Shown here: positions 8,715 to 48,216 of the stretch, piece after piece | Position numbering within the stretch: the stretch's first letter is position 1 | How the letters are laid out: every line of letters begins with the position of its first letter | DNA from: Euzebya sp. | GTDB lineage: Bacteria; Actinomycetota; Nitriliruptoria; Euzebyales; Euzebyaceae | Direction: 5' to 3' | Length of the DNA stretch: 48,216 nt | Assembly: GCF_964222135.1 (NCBI RefSeq) | Contig: NZ_CAXQBR010000078.1 | Location: forward strand, 1 to 48,216 | Program-made: the position numbers and the translations under genes | The notes under the pieces: generated by a model | What the model saw: the letters and a program-made list of their open reading frames with translations, nothing else | What the model was told of the DNA's origin: nothing | The model's database searches: none

Positions 8715-8819
8715 GAGCCCCGACCCGGCCGTGTCCGGTGCGCCATCCCCACCCCGCGGCCGCCGCGCCAGTGCGATGCTCGTCCCGGCGATCCCGAGCC
8801 GAGCGAGGAGGCCCCCGAA

Positions 8820-17208: not shown

Positions 17209-17892
17209 ATGCGTGCACTCGTCTACTACGTGGCCACGAGCCTCGACGGCTTCATCGCCGACCCCCAGGACCGCTACGACGCGTTCGTCGTCGATGACGA
17301 CCTCCTGGCCTTCCACACCGGCTACCTGGACCGCTTCGACGCGGTCGTCATGGGCCGCCGGACCTACGACATCGGGCTGGCGCTCGGCGTCACCAGCCCG
17401 TACCCCCAGATGGCCGAGCAGGTCGTGTTCTCCCGGACGCTGACCCGGTCGCCCGATCCCGCCGTCACCGTCACCAGCGACGACCCCGTCGCGGCCGTGC
17501 GGGCCATGAAGGCCCAGGACGGCGGGGACATCTGGCTGTGCGGCGGAGGTGACCTGGCCGCCCAGCTGCTCGCCGCCGACCTGGTCGACGAGCTCGTGGT
17601 CAAGCTCAACCCGTTCGTGATGGGCGACGGCATCCCGCTGTTCGCACCGCACACCGCGGCCACGCGGTGGCACCACGCGTCGACCGAGACGGCCGGCGAC
17701 CTGGGCATCCAGGTGCTGACCTACCACCGGTCACCGACAGCCGTCCGACCGCCACGCCGCGACCGCCGCGGCGCCGGCCGCGGACGGCACGGGCGCCCCC
17801 CGACCCCACGCGAGCGCGCCGGCGGTCCGCCCCGGCGCACCCCGCCGCGGGCCATCCAGGCCGCGCGCGCGAGCCGTCGCGGCAACCGGTAG
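17209..17892 (+). CDS. Dihydrofolate reductase/RibD C-terminal domain family protein
   Basis: This 227-aa protein has the DHFR-like fold of the RibD reductase family: YYVATSLDGFIAD at the N terminus, AVVMGRRTYD, VVFSRTL, IWLCGGGDLAAQLL and DELVVKLNPFVMGDGIPLF. These are the NADPH- and substrate-site landmarks of stand-alone YwjB/YyaP-type reductases, whose substrate is usually unknown. The ATG at 17209 is preceded by GGAGG at 17198-17202. The conserved domain ends near residue 178 (QVLTYHRS). The last 50 residues are an Arg/Pro/Gly-rich tail with no fold signature; either a genuine basic tail or read-through of a lost stop codon would explain it. It is convergent with the CapA-like gene. Confidence 0.82.
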   Translation: MRALVYYVATSLDGFIADPQDRYDAFVVDDDLLAFHTGYLDRFDAVVMGRRTYDIGLALGVTSPYPQMAEQVVFSRTLTRSPDPAVTVTSDDPVAAVRAMKAQDGGDIWLCGGGDLAAQLLAADLVDELVVKLNPFVMGDGIPLFAPHTAATRWHHASTETAGDLGIQVLTYHRSPTAVRPPRRDRRGAGRGRHGRPPTPRERAGGPPRRTPPRAIQAARASRRGNR

Positions 17893-40810: not shown

Positions 40811-40824
40811 TGCATCATGATGCA
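40811..40824. promoter_or_regulatory. Perfect palindrome TGCATCATGATGCA, vapBC operator
   Basis: A perfect 14-bp palindrome with a related half-site (TGATGCTATGATGC, 40832-40845) a turn and a half further on. It overlaps the -35 position of the promoter whose -10 lies at 40838. VapB antitoxins usually autoregulate by binding such palindromes. Confidence 0.6.
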
Positions 40825-40849: not shown

Positions 40850-41107
40850 GTGCGCACCACGATCACGCTCGATCCCGACACCGCAGCGCTCGTGCGCCAG
40901 GAGATGCGACGGCGCGGGGTGACGTTCAAGGAGGCGGTGAACAGCGCCATCCGAGCAGGGCTGACCAGGTCGCCGAGCCCCGCCGAGCCGTTCCGCACGC
41001 GTGCGGTCCCCATGGGCACGCCAGCCGTGAACCTCGACCGGGCCCTCCAGATCGCCGGTGAGCTCGAGGATGAGGAGCTCATCCGTCGGATGCGGGTCGG
41101 CAAGTGA
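40850..41107 (+). CDS. VapB-type antitoxin
   Basis: This 85-aa protein starts with a ribbon-helix-helix-type DNA-binding segment (RTTITLDPDTAALVRQEMRRRGVTFKEAVNSAIRAGL, 1-42) and ends in an acidic/basic tail (IAGELEDEELIRRMRVGK) that would wrap the toxin. The GTG at 40850 is 6 nt after TATGAT. The stop overlaps the toxin start by 4 bp (GTGA). It probably neutralises VapC and represses the pair at the palindrome 40811. Confidence 0.85.
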   Translation: MRTTITLDPDTAALVRQEMRRRGVTFKEAVNSAIRAGLTRSPSPAEPFRTRAVPMGTPAVNLDRALQIAGELEDEELIRRMRVGK

Positions 41108-41529
41108 CCCTGGTCGACGCGAACGTCCTGCTCTACGCCGTCAACGCCGATGCGCCCCACCACGCCGAGGCGGCCGACTGGTTGGACGGCGAGCTCAACG
41201 CCGGACGTCCGGTGGGGTTCGCCTGGATCGCGCTCCTGGCATTCGTGCGGCTGTCGACCAAGATCGGGCTGTTCCCCTCGCCGCTGCCGGTCGCGGAGGC
41301 GCTGGCCCAGGTCGAGGCCTGGGTGTCACACCCGGCGGCGGTCGTCGTCGAGCCCACGACACGCCACGTGACGGTCCTGGCCGGCCTCCTCGCAGAGGTC
41401 GGGACCGGCGGGAACCTCGTCAACGATGCGCACCTGGCCGCCCTGGCGGTGGAGCACGGTGCGGACGTGGTCAGCTACGACACCGACTTCGGCCGGTTCG
41501 AGGGTGTCGTGGTGCGCCGACCTCGTTGA
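41104..41529 (+). CDS. VapC-type PIN-domain toxin
   Basis: This 141-aa PIN-domain ribonuclease has VDANVLLYAVNAD (first Asp), HHAEAADWLDGEL, LVNDAHLAALAVEHGADVV (second Asp) and SYDTDFGRFEGV (third Asp). The sequence pattern GFAWIALLAFVRLSTKIGLFPSPL matches the sub-family called TA system VapC-family toxins. It should cleave RNA, often a tRNA or rRNA loop, when VapB is degraded. The GTG at 41104 overlaps the vapB stop. It ends 66 bp before the MFS gene and lies on the left edge of the GntR regulon. Confidence 0.87.
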   Translation: MTLVDANVLLYAVNADAPHHAEAADWLDGELNAGRPVGFAWIALLAFVRLSTKIGLFPSPLPVAEALAQVEAWVSHPAAVVVEPTTRHVTVLAGLLAEVGTGGNLVNDAHLAALAVEHGADVVSYDTDFGRFEGVVVRRPR

Positions 41530-41561
41530 CCTCCGCGTCCACGGTCGTCGCGGGACCGCGT

Positions 41562-41581
41562 GCATGATGTATACGACATGC
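41562..41581. promoter_or_regulatory. GTATAC operator 1 (GCAT-N3-GTATAC-N3-ATGC)
   Basis: GCATGATGTATACGACATGC is a 20-bp near-perfect palindrome: only the two positions between each outer GCATG and the GTATAC core break symmetry. It lies 15-34 bp before the MFS start. Sites 2 and 3 share its core and spacing. Confidence 0.6.
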
Positions 41582-41595
41582 CGAGGACGCGTAGC

Positions 41596-42819
41596 ATGTC
41601 CCGCATGTCCGGTCGACGAGATGCAGGCCCGACGGTGGTGGCCACCGCGGTCGTCGTCGTCTGCGTGCTGCCGGTGTTCCTCACCGGCGGGATGGTCACC
41701 CAACTGCGCGAGGACCTGGCCCTCGACGTGAGCGCGATCGGCGTCGCCATGTCGGCCTTCGTCGCCGCCCAGGCGCTCTGCTCCCGATCGCTCGGGCGAC
41801 GCGCGGACCGGATCGGCGCCGCGGCCGCGCTGCGGATCGCGACCGGCATCGCGCTCGCCAGCTCGGTCCTCCTCGCCACGCTCGTCACCGACGTCGTCGG
41901 CCTGACCGTCGCGCTGTCGCTGGCGGGCGTCGCCAACGCCCTCGGCCAACCGGCGGCCAGCCGGCTGCTCTCCCGGGTCGTCGGCGAGCGCCGCCAGGGG
42001 CTCGTCTTCGGCATCTACCAGTCCTCCAAGCCGATCGCGGGCTTGCAGGGCGGGTTGGCCGTGCCGGCCATCGCGCTGACGGTGGGGTGGCGGTGGGCCT
42101 ACGCCGTCGCGGCCGTCGCCACCGTCCTGTTGTTGGTCCACCTCCTCCGATCGCCCGCGGAGGACGCGAGCGAGGGCCGGACACCGCCTCCCGTCGCATC
42201 CGACCGCCCGCGCGCCGCCGGCGCCCGGCCGACCCTCGACCGGTCGGTGCGGGTGCCCCTGCTGATCGGCGCGGCGCTCGGCTTCGGCGCGGTGAAGGTG
42301 TTCGCCACGTTCGTGGTCGACGGTGGCGTCGAGGCCGGTCTGTCCCCGGCGACAGCCGGACTGGTGCTCTCCGCGGCCAGCGCCCTCGCGGTCGCCTCGC
42401 GCCTCACCGTCGGGCTGGTGGCCGACCGGCGCAGCGGCCACCAACTCGGGATGGTCGCGGCGATGCTCGGGGTCGGCAGCCTCGGCTTCGTCCTGCTGGC
42501 CCTGTCGCGACCCGGACCGGTCGTGGCCGGCGCGCTGGTCGTCGCCGCCGGCGCGTGGGGCTACAACGGCCTGTTCTACCTCTCGGTCACGCGTCTGCTG
42601 ACCGCGGCGCCCGGGACGATCACCGGCCTCGTGCTCTCGAGCTCCTCGGTCGGAGGGGTGCTCGCGCCGTTGGCCTTCGGGCTGGTCGTCGACCGGTGGT
42701 CCTACACCGTCGGGTGGGGCGCGACCGCCGCGTGGGGCCTGGTGGCGGCGGGGATGCTGCGGGTGGCGCACCTCCGCACGGCCGCGCCGACCACCGTGCC
42801 CGCGACGGGAGGATCGTGA
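41596..42819 (+). CDS. MFS transporter
   Basis: This 407-aa member of the major facilitator superfamily has about 12 membrane segments. The cytoplasmic loop 2-3 motif GRRADRIGAAAALRIATG and the mirrored VADRRSGHQLGMVAAM between segments 8 and 9 are typical. The chemical class is unknown; no domain indicates sugar or organic acid. Several in-frame starts exist (GTG 41560, ATG 41578, 41596, 41605); 41560 and 41578 lie in the operator, so 41596 (GAGG 9 nt before it) is preferred. The stop overlaps the GntR start (TGATG). It is the first gene of the operon with the GntR regulator and the LctP-family permease. Confidence 0.85.
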   Translation: MSRMSGRRDAGPTVVATAVVVVCVLPVFLTGGMVTQLREDLALDVSAIGVAMSAFVAAQALCSRSLGRRADRIGAAAALRIATGIALASSVLLATLVTDVVGLTVALSLAGVANALGQPAASRLLSRVVGERRQGLVFGIYQSSKPIAGLQGGLAVPAIALTVGWRWAYAVAAVATVLLLVHLLRSPAEDASEGRTPPPVASDRPRAAGARPTLDRSVRVPLLIGAALGFGAVKVFATFVVDGGVEAGLSPATAGLVLSAASALAVASRLTVGLVADRRSGHQLGMVAAMLGVGSLGFVLLALSRPGPVVAGALVVAAGAWGYNGLFYLSVTRLLTAAPGTITGLVLSSSSVGGVLAPLAFGLVVDRWSYTVGWGATAAWGLVAAGMLRVAHLRTAAPTTVPATGGS

Positions 42820-43493
42820 TGGGCCGCCTGCACCCCCTGGAGCAGCCGCCGATCCTCCGCGACCGGGTCTACGCGACCCTCGAGGAGCTGATCATCGACC
42901 GGACGCTCGCGCCGGGCTCCCGGCTGCTCGAAGGCGAGCTCGCCGAGCAGCTGGACGTCAGCCGCAACCCGGTCCGCGAGGCGCTGACCATGCTGGCCCA
43001 CTCGGGCTGGGTCGATCTGCGGCCGCGCATCGGCGCGGTCGTCCACACCCCGACGGCGAAGGAGGTCGACGACTTCTTCACCGTCCGCGGGGCGCTCGAG
43101 GAGGAGTCCGCGCGGCTGGCCGCGGTCAAGGCGACGCCCGGCGACGTCGCGGACCTCCGAGGTCTGCTCGCGGACGGGTGGGTCAGCGTCGCCGCGGAGG
43201 ATCCGGCCGGGATGTCCACGGCCAACGCCGCGTTCCACGCGCGGGTCGGACGGGTCGCCGACAACCGGGTGCTCGACGAGGTCCTCGCCCTGATGAAGAA
43301 GCGTCTGCGGTGGTACTTCAGCTCTGTCGCCACCGCCCGCGGCGCGGGGTCCTGGGAGGAGCACGCCCGGCTCATCGATGCCCTCGACGCCCACGACACC
43401 GGCGCCGCCGCGCAGGTCAGCCGGGACCACACGCGCGCCACCGCCGAGCTGTACCGCGACACCGCCGCCGCGGACCCCGCCGACCGGACGTGA
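42819..43493 (+). CDS. GntR family regulator with FCD domain (copy 1)
   Basis: This 224-aa repressor or activator has an N-terminal winged HTH (about 10-80; VYATLEELIIDRTLAPGSRLLEGELAEQL, VSRNPVREALTMLAHSGWVDLRPRIGAVVHTP) and a C-terminal FCD ligand domain (about 90-215) with metal-site residues such as NAAFHARVGRVADN and WEEHARLIDAL. FCD regulators often answer to organic acids. The ATG at 42819 overlaps the MFS stop by one base and its stop overlaps the permease GTG. It is a close paralogue of the gene at 45176, judged by eye to be well over half identical in the HTH part. Confidence 0.9.
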   Translation: MGRLHPLEQPPILRDRVYATLEELIIDRTLAPGSRLLEGELAEQLDVSRNPVREALTMLAHSGWVDLRPRIGAVVHTPTAKEVDDFFTVRGALEEESARLAAVKATPGDVADLRGLLADGWVSVAAEDPAGMSTANAAFHARVGRVADNRVLDEVLALMKKRLRWYFSSVATARGAGSWEEHARLIDALDAHDTGAAAQVSRDHTRATAELYRDTAAADPADRT

Positions 43494-45082
43494 ACGCCTC
43501 CGCGGTCACGCCCGTGACGTGGCTCCTCGCCGCGACCCCTGTCGTGGTGCTGTTCGCCACCGCGCTGGTGCGGCGCATCGCGACCCACCACGCCGCGCTG
43601 GCCGTCGCGGTCCTCACCGCGGTCATCGGGGTGACGGCCTTCGACGCCGGCGGCGCGGTCCTCGGCGTGGCGGTCGGGAAGGGCCTGTGGCTCGGGCTCT
43701 GGATCCTCTGCGTCGTCTGGCCCGCGCTGCTCCTGTACGGCGTGGCCCGCGCCGGCGGTCTCGAGCAGATCGGCCGGACCGTCGCCGCGCTCCTGCCCCG
43801 GCGTCGCGAGCGCCTCCTCCTCCTCGCCTGGGTCCTCCCCTCGTTCATCCAGGGCGTGGCCGGGTTCGGCACACCGATCGCGGTCAGCGCGCCCCTGCTG
43901 CTCGCCGCCGGGTGGTCCCCGGTCCGCGCCGTCGTCTACCCGCTCATCGGCTACCACTGGTCGGTCACGTTCGGGTCGATGGGCTCGTCGTTCTACATGG
44001 CCGCCCTGACCGCGGAGCTCGGGCTGGCCGACCAGACGGCGTTCGCGCTGCTCGCCTCGACGGCGCTCGCGATCCACTGCGTGGTCGCGGGCGCCCTGGT
44101 GCTGTGGCTGGACGGCGGTCTCGCCGCGGTCCGGGAGGGACTGCGCATGCTCGTCGTCGCCGGCGCGGCCATGGGTGGTGCGCTCGTCGGCGTGGCCCTC
44201 GTCGTCCCCGCGGTCGCCAGCCTCGCCGCCGGCACGGTCGGTCTGGCCACCGTCCTCGTCCTCTCGTCGCTCCGCGGAGCCGATCGGCGCACGCGACCGA
44301 TCCTCGGTGCCAGCGCGGACCACCCGGTCCTGGACGAGGGGCAGCGGACCTCTGCGACCACCTCGATCGCCGCCTTCGCCCCCTACCTCTGGTTGCTCCT
44401 CACGGCGCTCCCGGTGTTCCTCGTCCCGGCGTCGCGCAGCTGGGTCCGAGCCAACCTGCTCGTCGCGCCCGGCTTCGGCGAGACGGCGACGGGCCTCGGG
44501 TGGGTCAACGCCGCGGTCACCGACTACACCCCGATCGCCCTGCTCGGCCACCCGGGGTCCTACGTCGCCCTGGCCGCGGCCCTGGGGTACCTGACGTACC
44601 GCGCCGTCGGGCTCCTCGGCCCGGGCGGGAACCGCATCCTCCGGCCGTGGCTCGCGTCGCTGCCGAAGAGCTCGACGTCGATCGCCAGCCTGGCCGTCCT
44701 CGCCACGGTCATGGCGGACACGGGCATGGTGGCGGTCCTGGCCGAGGGGATCGCCGGCGTGGCCCGTGGCACCTTCCCGGCCCTGTCGCCGGTGGTGGGC
44801 GGCATCGGCTCGTTCATCACGGGATCCACCACGACGTCGAACGCGCTCTTCGCGGGGCTGCAGCTGCAGATCGCCGAGCGCCTCGACGTCGCGCCGACCG
44901 TCCTGCTCGCCGCCCAGACCGTCGGGGGCAACGTCGGCAACGCGGTGGCGCCCGTCGTGATCCTCATCGGCGCGACCACGATCGGCGACCCCGACGTGCT
45001 CGGGACCGTCCTGCGGCGCTGCCTGCCCGCGGCGGGGGTGCTGTTCGCCGTCGCGGCGCTCATCACGCTGCTGCGCGTGTGA
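43490..45082 (+). CDS. L-lactate permease (LctP) family transporter
   Basis: This 530-aa integral membrane protein has about 12-14 segments. FIQGVAGFGTPIAVSAPLL, HWSVTFGSMGSSFYMAAL, LPKSSTSIASLAVLATVM and GSFITGSTTTSNALFAGLQL are family signatures of LctP/LldP/GlcA-type 2-hydroxy acid permeases. Family members move lactate or glycolate with protons. In this context a sulfonated or phosphonated 3-carbon acid is a possible substrate. The GTG at 43490 overlaps the regulator stop (GTGA). The next gene starts after a 93-bp gap holding operator 2. Confidence 0.85.
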   Translation: MNASAVTPVTWLLAATPVVVLFATALVRRIATHHAALAVAVLTAVIGVTAFDAGGAVLGVAVGKGLWLGLWILCVVWPALLLYGVARAGGLEQIGRTVAALLPRRRERLLLLAWVLPSFIQGVAGFGTPIAVSAPLLLAAGWSPVRAVVYPLIGYHWSVTFGSMGSSFYMAALTAELGLADQTAFALLASTALAIHCVVAGALVLWLDGGLAAVREGLRMLVVAGAAMGGALVGVALVVPAVASLAAGTVGLATVLVLSSLRGADRRTRPILGASADHPVLDEGQRTSATTSIAAFAPYLWLLLTALPVFLVPASRSWVRANLLVAPGFGETATGLGWVNAAVTDYTPIALLGHPGSYVALAAALGYLTYRAVGLLGPGGNRILRPWLASLPKSSTSIASLAVLATVMADTGMVAVLAEGIAGVARGTFPALSPVVGGIGSFITGSTTTSNALFAGLQLQIAERLDVAPTVLLAAQTVGGNVGNAVAPVVILIGATTIGDPDVLGTVLRRCLPAAGVLFAVAALITLLRV

Positions 45083-45103
45083 CCCGACCCACCTCCGCCG
45101 CCC

Positions 45104-45123
45104 GCATCGCGTATACCTGATAC
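45104..45123. promoter_or_regulatory. GTATAC operator 2 (GCAT-N3-GTATAC-N3-ATAC)
   Basis: GCAT-CGC-GTATAC-CTG-ATAC has the spacing of site 1. It lies 53 bp before the GTG of the second GntR gene, in the only gap between the permease and that gene. Confidence 0.55.
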
Positions 45124-45175
45124 GTCAGCAACGGGGGGTCCCTCCCGTCGAACGTCAGCGCGAGGAGGTACTGCC

Positions 45176-45847
45176 GTGAGCGAGGTCCGCATCCCGCCCC
45201 TCGAGCAGTCGCCCGTGCTCCGCGACCGGGTCTATGAGACCCTCGAGGAGCTCGTCATCGACGGCACCCTCGCGCCCGGCGCCCGGCTGCTCGAAGCGGA
45301 GCTCGCCGAGCAGCTCTCGGTCAGCCGCAACCCCGTCCGCGAGGCCCTCACCCTGCTCGCCCACTCCGGCTGGGTGGACCTGCGACCGCGGCAGGGCGCG
45401 GTCGTGCACCGCCCGACCCGGAAGGAGATCGAGGACTTCTTCCAGGTCCGGACCGTCCTCAAGGTCGAGGCGGCCCGCCTGGCCGCGATGAACGCGACCG
45501 AGGCCGACGTGGACATCCTGAGGGATCTGGTGGCACAGGGCAGCGCGCAGATGGCCCGAGATGACCTCAAGGCCAGCCTCGCCACGAACAGCGCGTTCCA
45601 CGAGGAGGTCGGGCGCATCGCGGCCAACGCGGTCCTCGACGAGGTCACCACGCTGATGAAGAAGCGGCTGCGCTGGTACCTGAGCCCGGTCGTGCGGATG
45701 CGCGGCCTCCGCTCGTGGGAGGACCACCGCGCCCTGGTCGACGCGATCGCCGCGGGCGACGCCGACGCGGCCACCGCCACCATGCGCCGGCACTGCGCCA
45801 CCGCAGAACGGCTCTACCGCGAGCACGTCGCCGGCCTGACCGGCTGA
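45176..45847 (+). CDS. GntR family regulator with FCD domain (copy 2)
   Basis: This 223-aa paralogue of the gene at 42819 has a winged HTH (about 12-82; VYETLEELVIDGTLAPGARLLEAELAEQL, VSRNPVREALTLLAHSGWVDLRPRQGAVVHRP) almost identical in its recognition helix (SRNPVREALT) to copy 1, and an FCD domain with NSAFHEEVGRIAAN and WEDHRALVDAI. The GTG at 45176 has AGGAGG 7 nt before it. It sits alone between operator 2 and the region of operator 3. An identical recognition helix suggests that both proteins bind the same GTATAC sites, while different FCD domains could answer to different ligands. Confidence 0.9.
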   Translation: MSEVRIPPLEQSPVLRDRVYETLEELVIDGTLAPGARLLEAELAEQLSVSRNPVREALTLLAHSGWVDLRPRQGAVVHRPTRKEIEDFFQVRTVLKVEAARLAAMNATEADVDILRDLVAQGSAQMARDDLKASLATNSAFHEEVGRIAANAVLDEVTTLMKKRLRWYLSPVVRMRGLRSWEDHRALVDAIAAGDADAATATMRRHCATAERLYREHVAGLTG

Positions 45848-45881
45848 CGTCCCCCGCATCCCCTCGGATGTGACGGGGGTG

Positions 45882-45896
45882 TTTCCATCGTGGAAA
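45882..45896. promoter_or_regulatory. Palindrome TTTCCA-TCG-TGGAAA upstream of the decarboxylase
   Basis: A perfect 6-bp inverted repeat with a 3-bp centre in an AT-rich patch. It lies 35 bp after the GntR stop and 5 bp before the GTAT array. The arms resemble the TGGAAA-type half sites of some IclR operators, but no IclR gene is in the window. Confidence 0.5.
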
Positions 45897-45901
45897 ATCC
45901 G

Positions 45902-45928
45902 GTATCTCGTATCTTGTATACCGTTGAC
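45902..45928. promoter_or_regulatory. GTATAC operator 3 with three GTAT units at 7-bp spacing
   Basis: GTAT recurs at 45902, 45909 and 45916, exactly 7 bp apart; the last is a full GTATAC (45916-45921) followed by TTGACA (45924-45929), a possible -35 element. If the RNA polymerase uses that -35, a protein on GTATAC would block it. The first gene of the decarboxylase operon starts at 45984. Confidence 0.55.
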
Positions 45929-45983
45929 AAGTCCCTCGGATGGGTGGAGTGTCTGGATCCCCACCCCCGGCAGAGGGACATCG

Positions 45984-46535
45984 ATGACCGCTCTCGTCGC
46001 ACCAGTCGACGCACCGCCCCGCAGTTGGACCGCCACCCTCCTCGACGGCCTGGAGGCCGCTGGCGTCACCCACCTGCCCTACCTCCCCGACAAGCCGCTC
46101 GCGACGGTGGTCACCGACGCCGAGCAGCGCGACGGGCTGGTCACGATCCCCCTCACCCGCGAGGAGGAGGGGGTGGGCATCGCCGTCGGGCTGAACCTCG
46201 CCGGACGCCGGTCCGCGCTGATGATGCAGGCGAGCGGGATGGGCAACAGCCTCAACGCGATCGGGTCGGTCGCGATGGCCCAGCGCATCCCGCTCCTGCT
46301 GGTCGTCACCGAGCGCGGCGGACTGGGTGAGACCGTCTCGACCCAGGTCCCCTTCGGCGCGGCGCTGCCACGGGTGCTCGACGCGATGGCCGTCCGCTGC
46401 GTGCCCCTGACCGACGCCGAGGATGTGGAGGAGACGACGCGCCTCGCCGCCGAGCTCGCCTTCACCTCACGCCAGGTCGTCGTCCTGCACGTCACCGCCG
46501 GCATGATCAAGGGACGCCGGGGAGGGGTCGCCTGA
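45984..46535 (+). CDS. comD: Sulfopyruvate decarboxylase-like ThDP enzyme, alpha (Pyr-domain) subunit
   Basis: This 183-aa subunit matches the ComD half of the split decarboxylase: LLDGLEAAGVTHLPYLPDKPL, then LTREEEGVGIAVGLNLAG with the conserved Glu that activates ThDP, SALMMQASGMGNSLNAIGS and the strand LLLVVTERGG. In ComDE the Pyr and PP domains are separate proteins. The family decarboxylates 3-sulfopyruvate to sulfoacetaldehyde; related single-chain enzymes act on phosphonopyruvate, so specificity is not settled. ATG 45984 has AGAGGGA 5-12 nt before it; the frame is open further upstream across the operator and was not used. The stop overlaps the beta subunit start (TGATG). Confidence 0.78.
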   Translation: MTALVAPVDAPPRSWTATLLDGLEAAGVTHLPYLPDKPLATVVTDAEQRDGLVTIPLTREEEGVGIAVGLNLAGRRSALMMQASGMGNSLNAIGSVAMAQRIPLLLVVTERGGLGETVSTQVPFGAALPRVLDAMAVRCVPLTDAEDVEETTRLAAELAFTSRQVVVLHVTAGMIKGRRGGVA

Positions 46536-47149
46536 TGGCCGTCGACCGCGCCGCCGCCGTCACCGAGCTGGTCGCCCGCCTGGCCGACACCGACCTCGTC
46601 GTGGCCGCCCTCGGGAACCCCGCCTACGACCTGTACGACGCCGGCGACCGCCCGGGGAACGTCTACCTGTGGGGCGGGATGGGCCTGGCTCCCTCCATCG
46701 GCCTGGGGGTGGCCCTCGGCCGTCCGGACCGACGCGTCGTCGCCATGGAGGGCGACGGCGGCGTGCTGATGAACTTGGGCGCCCTCGCGAGCATCGGCTC
46801 GCTGGCCCCGCCGAACCTGATCACGATCGTCTGGGACAACCGCAGCTTCGAGCTGACCGGCGGCCAACCCACGGCCACGACCGACGGGGCCACCGACCTC
46901 GCCGCCGTCGCGACGGGCTGCGGCATCCCGGCCGTCCGGACCGTCGCGGACCTCGACGCCTTCACGACCACGATCGACGAGGCCCTCACCTCCCCCGGGC
47001 CGTGGTGCCTGGTCGTCGACACCCTCCCGACCCCCGCCGACCGGGTCAAGCCGCTCGCCGCGCTGCGCCGCCGCTTCGTCCGCACCGAGGAGTTCACCGA
47101 CCTGGCCAGCGGAACGGCGAGCGGAACGGCAACCGGAGCGGTCGCGTGA
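46535..47149 (+). CDS. comE: Sulfopyruvate decarboxylase-like ThDP enzyme, beta (PP-domain) subunit
   Basis: This 204-aa subunit holds the ThDP diphosphate/Mg motif: MEGDGGVLMNLGALASIGSL with WDNRSFELTGG, the GDG...N pattern. GNPAYDLYDAGDRPGNVYLWGGMGLAPSIGLGVAL is typical of ComE. The last 20 residues (LASGTASGTATGAVA) are a low-complexity tail. The ATG overlaps the alpha stop, and its own stop overlaps the aldehyde dehydrogenase start (GTGA), so three genes are coupled. With ComD it should form one alpha/beta active site. Confidence 0.8.
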   Translation: MAVDRAAAVTELVARLADTDLVVAALGNPAYDLYDAGDRPGNVYLWGGMGLAPSIGLGVALGRPDRRVVAMEGDGGVLMNLGALASIGSLAPPNLITIVWDNRSFELTGGQPTATTDGATDLAAVATGCGIPAVRTVADLDAFTTTIDEALTSPGPWCLVVDTLPTPADRVKPLAALRRRFVRTEEFTDLASGTASGTATGAVA

Positions 47150-48216
47150 CACCCCCCGCGGCCACGCTCGACGCGCGGTTCGCCCTCGCGGTGGGGGAGG
47201 GGCCTGCCCCCGACCGCCCGCTCCTCCCCGTCCAGGACCCCTACCGCGGCGACACCGCCTTCTGGGTCGCCCGCGCCAGCGCCGAGGACGTGCAGTCCGC
47301 GGTCCGGCTTGCCCGTGCCGCGCTCGCCGACCCGCTGCCCGCCCACCGCCGGTCCGCGGTGCTCGACACCGCCGCCGACCTGGTCGACGACGCCGCCGAG
47401 GACCTGACCCGCCTCCTCGTCCGCGAAGCGGGCAAGCCCCGCCGTGCCGCCGCCGGCGAGGTCGCCCGGACCGCCGAGACGCTGCGGTGGAGCGCCGGGG
47501 AGGCGCTGCGGATCACCGGTGAGGCGATCCCCCTCGACGCCGCAGCCGCCGGGGAGGGCCGGCTGGCGTTCACCCTCCGCGAACCCGTCGGCGTGGTCGC
47601 GGCCATCACCCCGACCAACGCGCCCCTCAACCTGGCGGCCCACAAGGTCGGTCCGGCCCTCGCCGCCGGGAACGCCGTCGTCCTCAAGCCGCCGGACGCC
47701 ACCCCGTGCACGGCCCTCGCGCTGCGCGACCTGCTGCTCGCCGCCGGCCTGCCCGCGGCCTGGTTCAGCGTCGTCGTCGGGGGCGGTCTCGGACAGGCGC
47801 TGGTCGCCAACCCCGACGTCGACCTGATCACCTTCACGGGCAGCGTCGAGACGGGTCGGCACATCCGCGCGGCCGCCGGCATCCGCGACGTCATGCTCGA
47901 GCTCGGCGGCAACAGCCCCGTGATCATCCACGCCGACGCCGACCTCGACCGGGCGGTGGGCGCGTGCACCGCGAAGGGCTTCGCCGGCGCCGGGCAGGCG
48001 TGCACGTCGGTGCAGCGGATCATCGCCCACCGCGACGTCGCCGAGGAGGTCGCTCGCCGCCTCGTCGCCGCGGTCGCCGAGCTGGGCGACGGCGACCCCG
48101 ACGACCCCGCCACCACGGTCGCGTCCCTCCGCGACGACGAGTCCGCCGACCGGGTGCGGTCCTGGGTCGCCGAGGCCGTGCAGCGCGGCGCCCGCCTCCT
48201 CACCGGCGGACGGCGG
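47146..48216 (+). CDS. Aldehyde dehydrogenase family protein (3' end cut by window)
   Basis: The visible 357 residues are the N-terminal three quarters of an NAD(P)-dependent aldehyde dehydrogenase. TPTNAPLNLAAHKVGPALAAGN, then VVLKPPDATP, FTGSVETGRHI, the active-site Glu in LELGGNSPV and the catalytic Cys in GAGQACTSVQRI are all present. The NAPLNLxxHKVxPAxAAGN pattern is shared with lactaldehyde, phosphonoacetaldehyde (PhnY-type) and related dehydrogenases. After a ComDE-like decarboxylase the natural substrate is sulfoacetaldehyde (or phosphonoacetaldehyde), oxidised to the carboxylate. The GTG at 47146 overlaps the beta-subunit stop by 4 bp. The gene continues past the window. Confidence 0.88.
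   Translation, partial: MTPPAATLDARFALAVGEGPAPDRPLLPVQDPYRGDTAFWVARASAEDVQSAVRLARAALADPLPAHRRSAVLDTAADLVDDAAEDLTRLLVREAGKPRRAAAGEVARTAETLRWSAGEALRITGEAIPLDAAAAGEGRLAFTLREPVGVVAAITPTNAPLNLAAHKVGPALAAGNAVVLKPPDATPCTALALRDLLLAAGLPAAWFSVVVGGGLGQALVANPDVDLITFTGSVETGRHIRAAAGIRDVMLELGGNSPVIIHADADLDRAVGACTAKGFAGAGQACTSVQRIIAHRDVAEEVARRLVAAVAELGDGDPDDPATTVASLRDDESADRVRSWVAEAVQRGARLLTGGRR

Follow-up and report, generated by a model that had tools for sequence, protein, structure and literature searches.

Does a GTATAC-centred motif that recurs in front of three neighbouring genes mark a single regulon, which protein would read it, and is the operator new? An earlier note on the DNA presented here had proposed one autoregulated GntR regulon with a novel operator, based on sites between 41562 and 45928 of the window, by which we mean the whole stretch of 48,216 nucleotides that was analysed.

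Proposed operator sites and gene layout

The sites and the genes around them are arranged as follows:

Operator 1, 41562-41581: GCATGATGTATACGACATGC, that is GCAT-N3-GTATAC-N3-ATGC, after the stop of the PIN gene, before the start of the MFS gene and directly 5' of its ribosome-binding site
MFS transporter, 41596..42819, + strand: first gene of unit 1; PF07690, 122.9 bits
gntR1, 42819..43493, + strand: GntR/FCD regulator, PF00392 and PF07729; start overlaps the MFS stop
lctP, 43490..45082, + strand: lactate-permease-family transporter, PF02652, 188.8 bits (TIGR00795 score under its cut-off); start overlaps the gntR1 stop
Operator 2, 45104-45123: GCATCGCGTATACCTGATAC, that is GCAT-N3-GTATAC-N3-ATAC, about 52 bp 5' of the gntR2 start
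gntR2, 45176..45847, + strand: GntR/FCD regulator, PF00392 and PF07729; predicted single-gene unit
Operator 3, 45902-45928: GTAT-N3-GTAT-N3-GTATAC-N3-TGAC, with the core part 45909-45928 being GTATCTTGTATACCGTTGAC, about 55 bp 5' of the comD-like start
comD-like gene, 45984..46535, + strand: thiamine-diphosphate decarboxylase alpha subunit; TIGR03845, 125.2 bits, below the cut-off of 147.95
comE-like gene, 46535..47149, + strand: thiamine-diphosphate decarboxylase beta subunit, PF02775; TIGR03846, 134.1 bits, below the cut-off of 221.5
Aldehyde dehydrogenase (ALDH), 47146..48216, + strand: PF00171, 333.7 bits; cut by the contig end at 48216

All three site sequences lie exactly where the earlier note had placed them, and the further GTAT that it saw 7 bp upstream of site 3 is present at 45902-45905, giving operator 3 three GTAT half-sites in 7-bp steps (45902, 45909 and 45916). 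Outer boxes flank the core on both sides at operators 1 and 2 (two of the three sites); the right arm of site 3 is TGAC, which does not fit ATRC, and GYAT is found at five of the six outer positions of the three sites. TTGACA, at 45924-45929, adjoins operator 3. The placement in intergenic gaps likewise holds: 41530-41595 (66 bp), 45083-45175 (93 bp) and 45848-45983 (136 bp) precede the MFS, gntR2 and comD-like genes, respectively. The MFS start was picked by a GAGGA ribosome-binding site at 41583-41587, with 41578 and 41605 as alternative starts. A simple scan found no sigma-70 promoter and no terminator, so any overlap of operator and promoter is read from distance only. Further upstream, a 14-bp perfect palindrome, TGCATCATGATGCA (window 40811-40824), precedes a small gene of the VapB type and the gene for a PIN-domain toxin (40850-41529); it is probably the toxin-antitoxin operator.

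The core is as rare as had been claimed. The window holds exactly three copies of GTATAC against 0.5 expected, a number that 0 of 100 dinucleotide shuffles of the window reached, and pattern searches of the 5.06 Mb genome place the hexamer at only 14 positions; from the 11 other copies, about 0.01 would be expected per 4.4 kb stretch. The extended GYAT-N3-GTATAC occurs in the 5.06 Mb genome at these three sites only (its reversed-pattern control gives 0 matches), and the full GYAT-N3-GTATAC-N3-ATRC, with up to two mismatches, again matches only there; at three mismatches this four-part motif reaches background level. The excess in the window, with the extended motif confined to the three sites, is therefore far beyond chance. 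On contig C86 of the same genome (about 1286-1299 of locus L016), GTATAC sits within a longer palindrome, TTAGGTATACCTAA, flanked by the inverted words GGCAGG/CCTGCC next to a gene start; this resembles an operator belonging to a different regulator, possibly one for metals.

Since the start and stop codons of MFS, gntR1 and lctP overlap, these genes are predicted to form one transcription unit, and the layout resolves into three predicted units (MFS-gntR1-lctP; gntR2; comD/E-like-ALDH) with one site before each. The name ComD given earlier to the first gene of unit 3 stands insofar as its product and that of its neighbour are ComDE-like thiamine-diphosphate decarboxylase subunits; because both TIGR03845 and TIGR03846 scores fall below the curated NCBIfam cut-offs, sulfopyruvate decarboxylase is unproven. 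Unit 3 probably runs on into contig C12 of the source genome (L144, reverse strand), which carries an ALDH C-terminus, ABC ATPase, permease, binding protein, gamma-glutamyltransferase (GGT), LLM oxidoreductase and M24 peptidase. We infer the join from an inexact overlap, of 138 bp at 94% identity, between the ALDH end on C12 and the end of the window; this level of identity suggests strain variation in the assembly. C12 was also searched for weak sites, defined as a GYAT or ATRC arm together with a core carrying no more than one mismatch, and has none.

The core and the 7-bp step among relatives

Related loci in other organisms bear on whether the motif follows the regulator. Among 80 relatives of the regulator, taken from other species, 37 of the FCD-GntR genes have GTATAC within 260 bp upstream, and the density upstream of the 80 genes is 1.97 per kb versus 0.16 per kb elsewhere in the loci (about 12-fold); the GTATAC core thus accompanies FCD-GntR genes across phyla. 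After all GTATAC copies of the relatives' loci had been merged by similarity into 96 independent site clusters, GTAT was found exactly 7 bp outside GTATAC in 14 clusters versus about 0.5 expected. A second, lower maximum lies at 14 bp (4 of 96), and the other offsets have 0 to 2 clusters; ATAC at -5, seen in 17 clusters, is the 7-bp step again, in the form of GTATAC-N-GTATAC or half of it. The outer boxes of the window are therefore a recurring feature of this FCD branch rather than a coincidence among three sites.

A search of 60 related genomes, made without selection for GntR genes, found GTAT-N3-GTATAC at only six other places. Four of them have an FCD-GntR gene no more than 8.5 kb away; LLM and ABC genes adjoin one of the four (G057), and GGT and ALDH genes adjoin two (G050 has such genes). 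In G050, two GTATAC-N-GTATAC double sites stand 495 bp apart (L049:16738-16750 and 17233-17245), and their contig also carries FCD-GntR, GGT and two ALDH genes. In many Actinobacteria, GTAT-N3-GTATAC is also present some 8 kb from the regulator gene, as at L069:16158, L126:16100, L076:16040 and similar Micromonosporaceae loci, lying in L069 and L126 upstream of a probable ABC-importer binding-protein gene. The combination GntR-GGT-ABC(-LctP) has the look of a regulon of wide distribution, for which no published description was found. Several relatives with LctP neighbours (L050, L051 and L072), on the other hand, have no GTATAC.

In Mycobacterium sp. 236 (L055), both promoters of the related locus carry GTATAC. 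One copy lies at the start of an isochorismatase-gntR unit (7291), and the other, as GTATAC-N3-ATAC at 8734, lies 27 bp 5' of an ABC transporter-GGT-LLM unit whose counterpart on C12, directly after the ALDH end, is 55 to 66% identical. The fetched Mycobacterium locus has one regulator. In Pseudonocardia sp. CNS-139 (L113), ABC, LLM and M24 genes of the C12 type (61 to 75% identity) lie near a gntR with a broken frame, and GTATAC is found 68 bp 5' of the segment of the gene that could be matched; this nearest-in-sequence gntR is split over two reading frames (L113:7380-7942), which reflects either a true mutation or an error in the sequence. A same-order relative, G023 (52% GntR), was dropped as a source of promoter orthology, its neighbourhood being different. 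ComD relatives were also sought in 396 genomes of the phylum, where nine, the source genome included, reached the threshold; the fetched stretches of three other ComD loci (L145-L147) had no matching regulator, lctP, MFS or GGT gene and no GTATAC, and comDE-like genes were not found beside related regulators in other genomes.

Two regulators and a proposed regulon

Both regulators belong to the FadR/FCD group, with PF00392 (GntR) and PF07729 (FCD) above cut-off in each; they are 61% identical, and their GntR domains begin at residue 14 to 16. The recognition helix is indeed the same in the two proteins, as the earlier note had it (identical stretch SRNPVREALT), but by itself this is weak evidence for one regulon, since scan patterns for the helix, one of them VSR[NI]PVREA, matched hundreds of GntR relatives. 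The metal-binding residues N138, H142, H184 and H206 of GntR2 are invariant in an alignment of six proteins. In the tree, the GntR of Mycobacterium sp. 236 clusters with GntR1 and GntR2 (support 97/94), and GntR1 pairs with the Mycobacterium protein and not with GntR2 (98/94), which rules out a very recent duplication. A third, less similar FCD-GntR gene of the source genome also has GTATAC just 5' of its probable start (contig C68, 13987-13992, equal to L015:1288), there without a GYAT box at -7; the core alone therefore cannot tell which regulator binds.

Given the rarity of the motif and a site before each predicted unit, we accept one GntR (FCD) regulon; together with the comparative data, site rarity and positions lend good support to the autoregulated regulon that had been proposed, with autoregulation through gntR2 and probably gntR1. 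In the model that we favour, a regulator dimer would sit on the GTATAC core, and extra GYAT half-sites in outward 7-bp steps would seat neighbouring dimers and raise affinity. Binding near the promoters would most likely repress units 1, 2 and 3, and probably the ABC-GGT-LLM genes of C12, until the zinc-containing FCD domain took up a small acid and the repression was lifted, so that import and breakdown of the acid would switch on together. Binding itself, repression over activation, dimer cooperation and the inducer are the parts of this model that we infer. As a whole, operators of one regulon under a local FCD GntR (gntR2, gntR1 or both) and an acid-relieved repression, it is in our judgement the likely explanation by a wide measure.

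The two paralogues may nevertheless have divided their work, with one of them (e.g., GntR2) binding the operators while GntR1 answers another signal or acts elsewhere. We regard this as a serious but minority possibility: at 61% identity, and with GntR1 beside the Mycobacterium protein in the tree, the copy is not very recent, and the fetched Mycobacterium locus shows a single regulator, but the recognition helices are identical, the two units that contain a gntR are preceded by the same class of operator, and no other motif stood out in the gaps. Activation in place of repression appears unlikely. CitO, an FCD protein, is described as inducing its target promoters (PMC4746285), and operators 2 and 3, at 52-55 bp before the start codons, are at a distance compatible with either mode; operator 1, however, abuts the MFS ribosome-binding site, a position that fits blocking, and the autoregulated FCD protein Atu1419, with the same core, is a repressor (PMC7797058). 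Scarcely any weight attaches to the reading of GTATAC as a mere -10-like promoter element or chance AT-rich promoter DNA: although AT-rich hexamers are to be expected in short gaps 5' of genes, such as those that hold the sites, the promoter scan finds none, TATACG and TATACC lack the final T of a -10 box, the inverted GYAT/ATRC arms are foreign to promoters, and the extended motif is found in the genome only at these sites while its core tracks FCD-GntR genes across phyla.

The regulated genes point to uptake of a compound that is an organic acid or resembles a sulfonate, and to its decarboxylation and oxidation, although this guess at the substrate is tentative and could readily prove wrong. 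A pathway for a sulfonate or a gamma-glutamyl compound is possible but unproven. Three weak hints speak for a sulfonate: C12 encodes ABC parts of the taurine/sulfonate type, the decarboxylase resembles ComDE, and the Mycobacterium locus has a TauE-type exporter gene. Searches of the literature for sulfolactate with GntR, TTGTATACAA with GntR, GGTATACC with UxuR and a GGT-GntR-sulfonate regulon found nothing useful.

Comparison with known GntR-family operators

The regulon is real, but its type is already known, and the operator is a variant of the site known for this repressor family. The claim of a novel operator accordingly falls: FadR-subfamily operators follow the consensus NyGTM-N0-1-KACNy (Suvorova et al., 2015, PMC4494728), which GTATAC fits exactly as GTM-N0-KAC; the palindrome of GT and AC, 2-3 nt apart, that characterises a FadR-type operator is present at all three sites. 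Accessory boxes have been published too: in the GntR family, additional half-sites of lower strength occur at 7-12 nt from the centre of the site (PMC4494728). The centre of the outer GYAT box here lies 8 nt from the core centre, inside that range, and the outer boxes of the window and of the relatives show the half-site likeness that sets accessory boxes apart from control positions. As in the FadR subfamily, sites stand before the regulator's own gene and before transporter genes (PMC4494728). The published consensus boxes, however, are TKGT/ACMA, whereas the outer boxes here are GYAT/ATRC in fixed 7-bp steps.

The same core is occupied in a solved structure: Atu1419 of Agrobacterium fabrum (VanR group, FCD) was crystallized on ATGTATACAT and is an autoregulated repressor controlling its own and neighbouring catabolic genes (PMC7797058). 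Atu1419 matches GntR2 with an E value of 4e-14 and shares with GntR1 and GntR2 the FCD domain and the GTATAC core; its zinc residues N137/H141/H192/H214 correspond to N138/H142/H184/H206 of GntR2, and in our reading of the pairwise alignment its Arg45, the residue in contact with the G of GTATAC, pairs with Arg51 of GntR2. Atu1419, shown to be a tetramer, controls different genes, and we noticed no 7-bp outer boxes in the accessible text (PMC7797058). HypR of Streptomyces was set aside as a comparison, its consensus, CTNTGC(A/C)ATGTCAC, being different.

Operator 3, with several GTAT-containing half-sites in tandem, resembles the operator of NanR of E. coli, in which three dimers bind (GGTATA)3 and cooperate by means of a 32-residue N-terminal extension (PMC8012715). 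The NanR repeats are direct copies of GGTATA, whereas the core here is the palindrome GTATAC, and the 32-residue extension is absent from both GntR1 and GntR2; the NanR-type combination of direct repeats and long extension is thus not found. Conceivably, both paralogues jointly fill a composite operator of 7-bp steps, as stacked or mixed dimers. Such a packed arrangement would differ from the single palindromes of FadR sites and from the repeats of NanR, and it would extend through this FCD branch from Actinobacteria to Burkholderiales and Bradyrhizobium, but we consider this rather improbable.

What these data add to published knowledge is the exact position of the extra half-site, 7 bp outside the core and, less often, at 14 bp. 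This strict step in the FCD branch is the part that may deserve attention. The analysis also yields a precise operator for an uncharacterised FCD branch that, in many Actinobacteria and some Pseudomonadota, is found with genes for GGT, ABC importers and lactate permeases. Set beside the FadR-subfamily sites of Suvorova et al., the fixed 7-bp spacing turns their unexplained 'additional boxes' into a concrete problem, the packing of FCD dimers along DNA.
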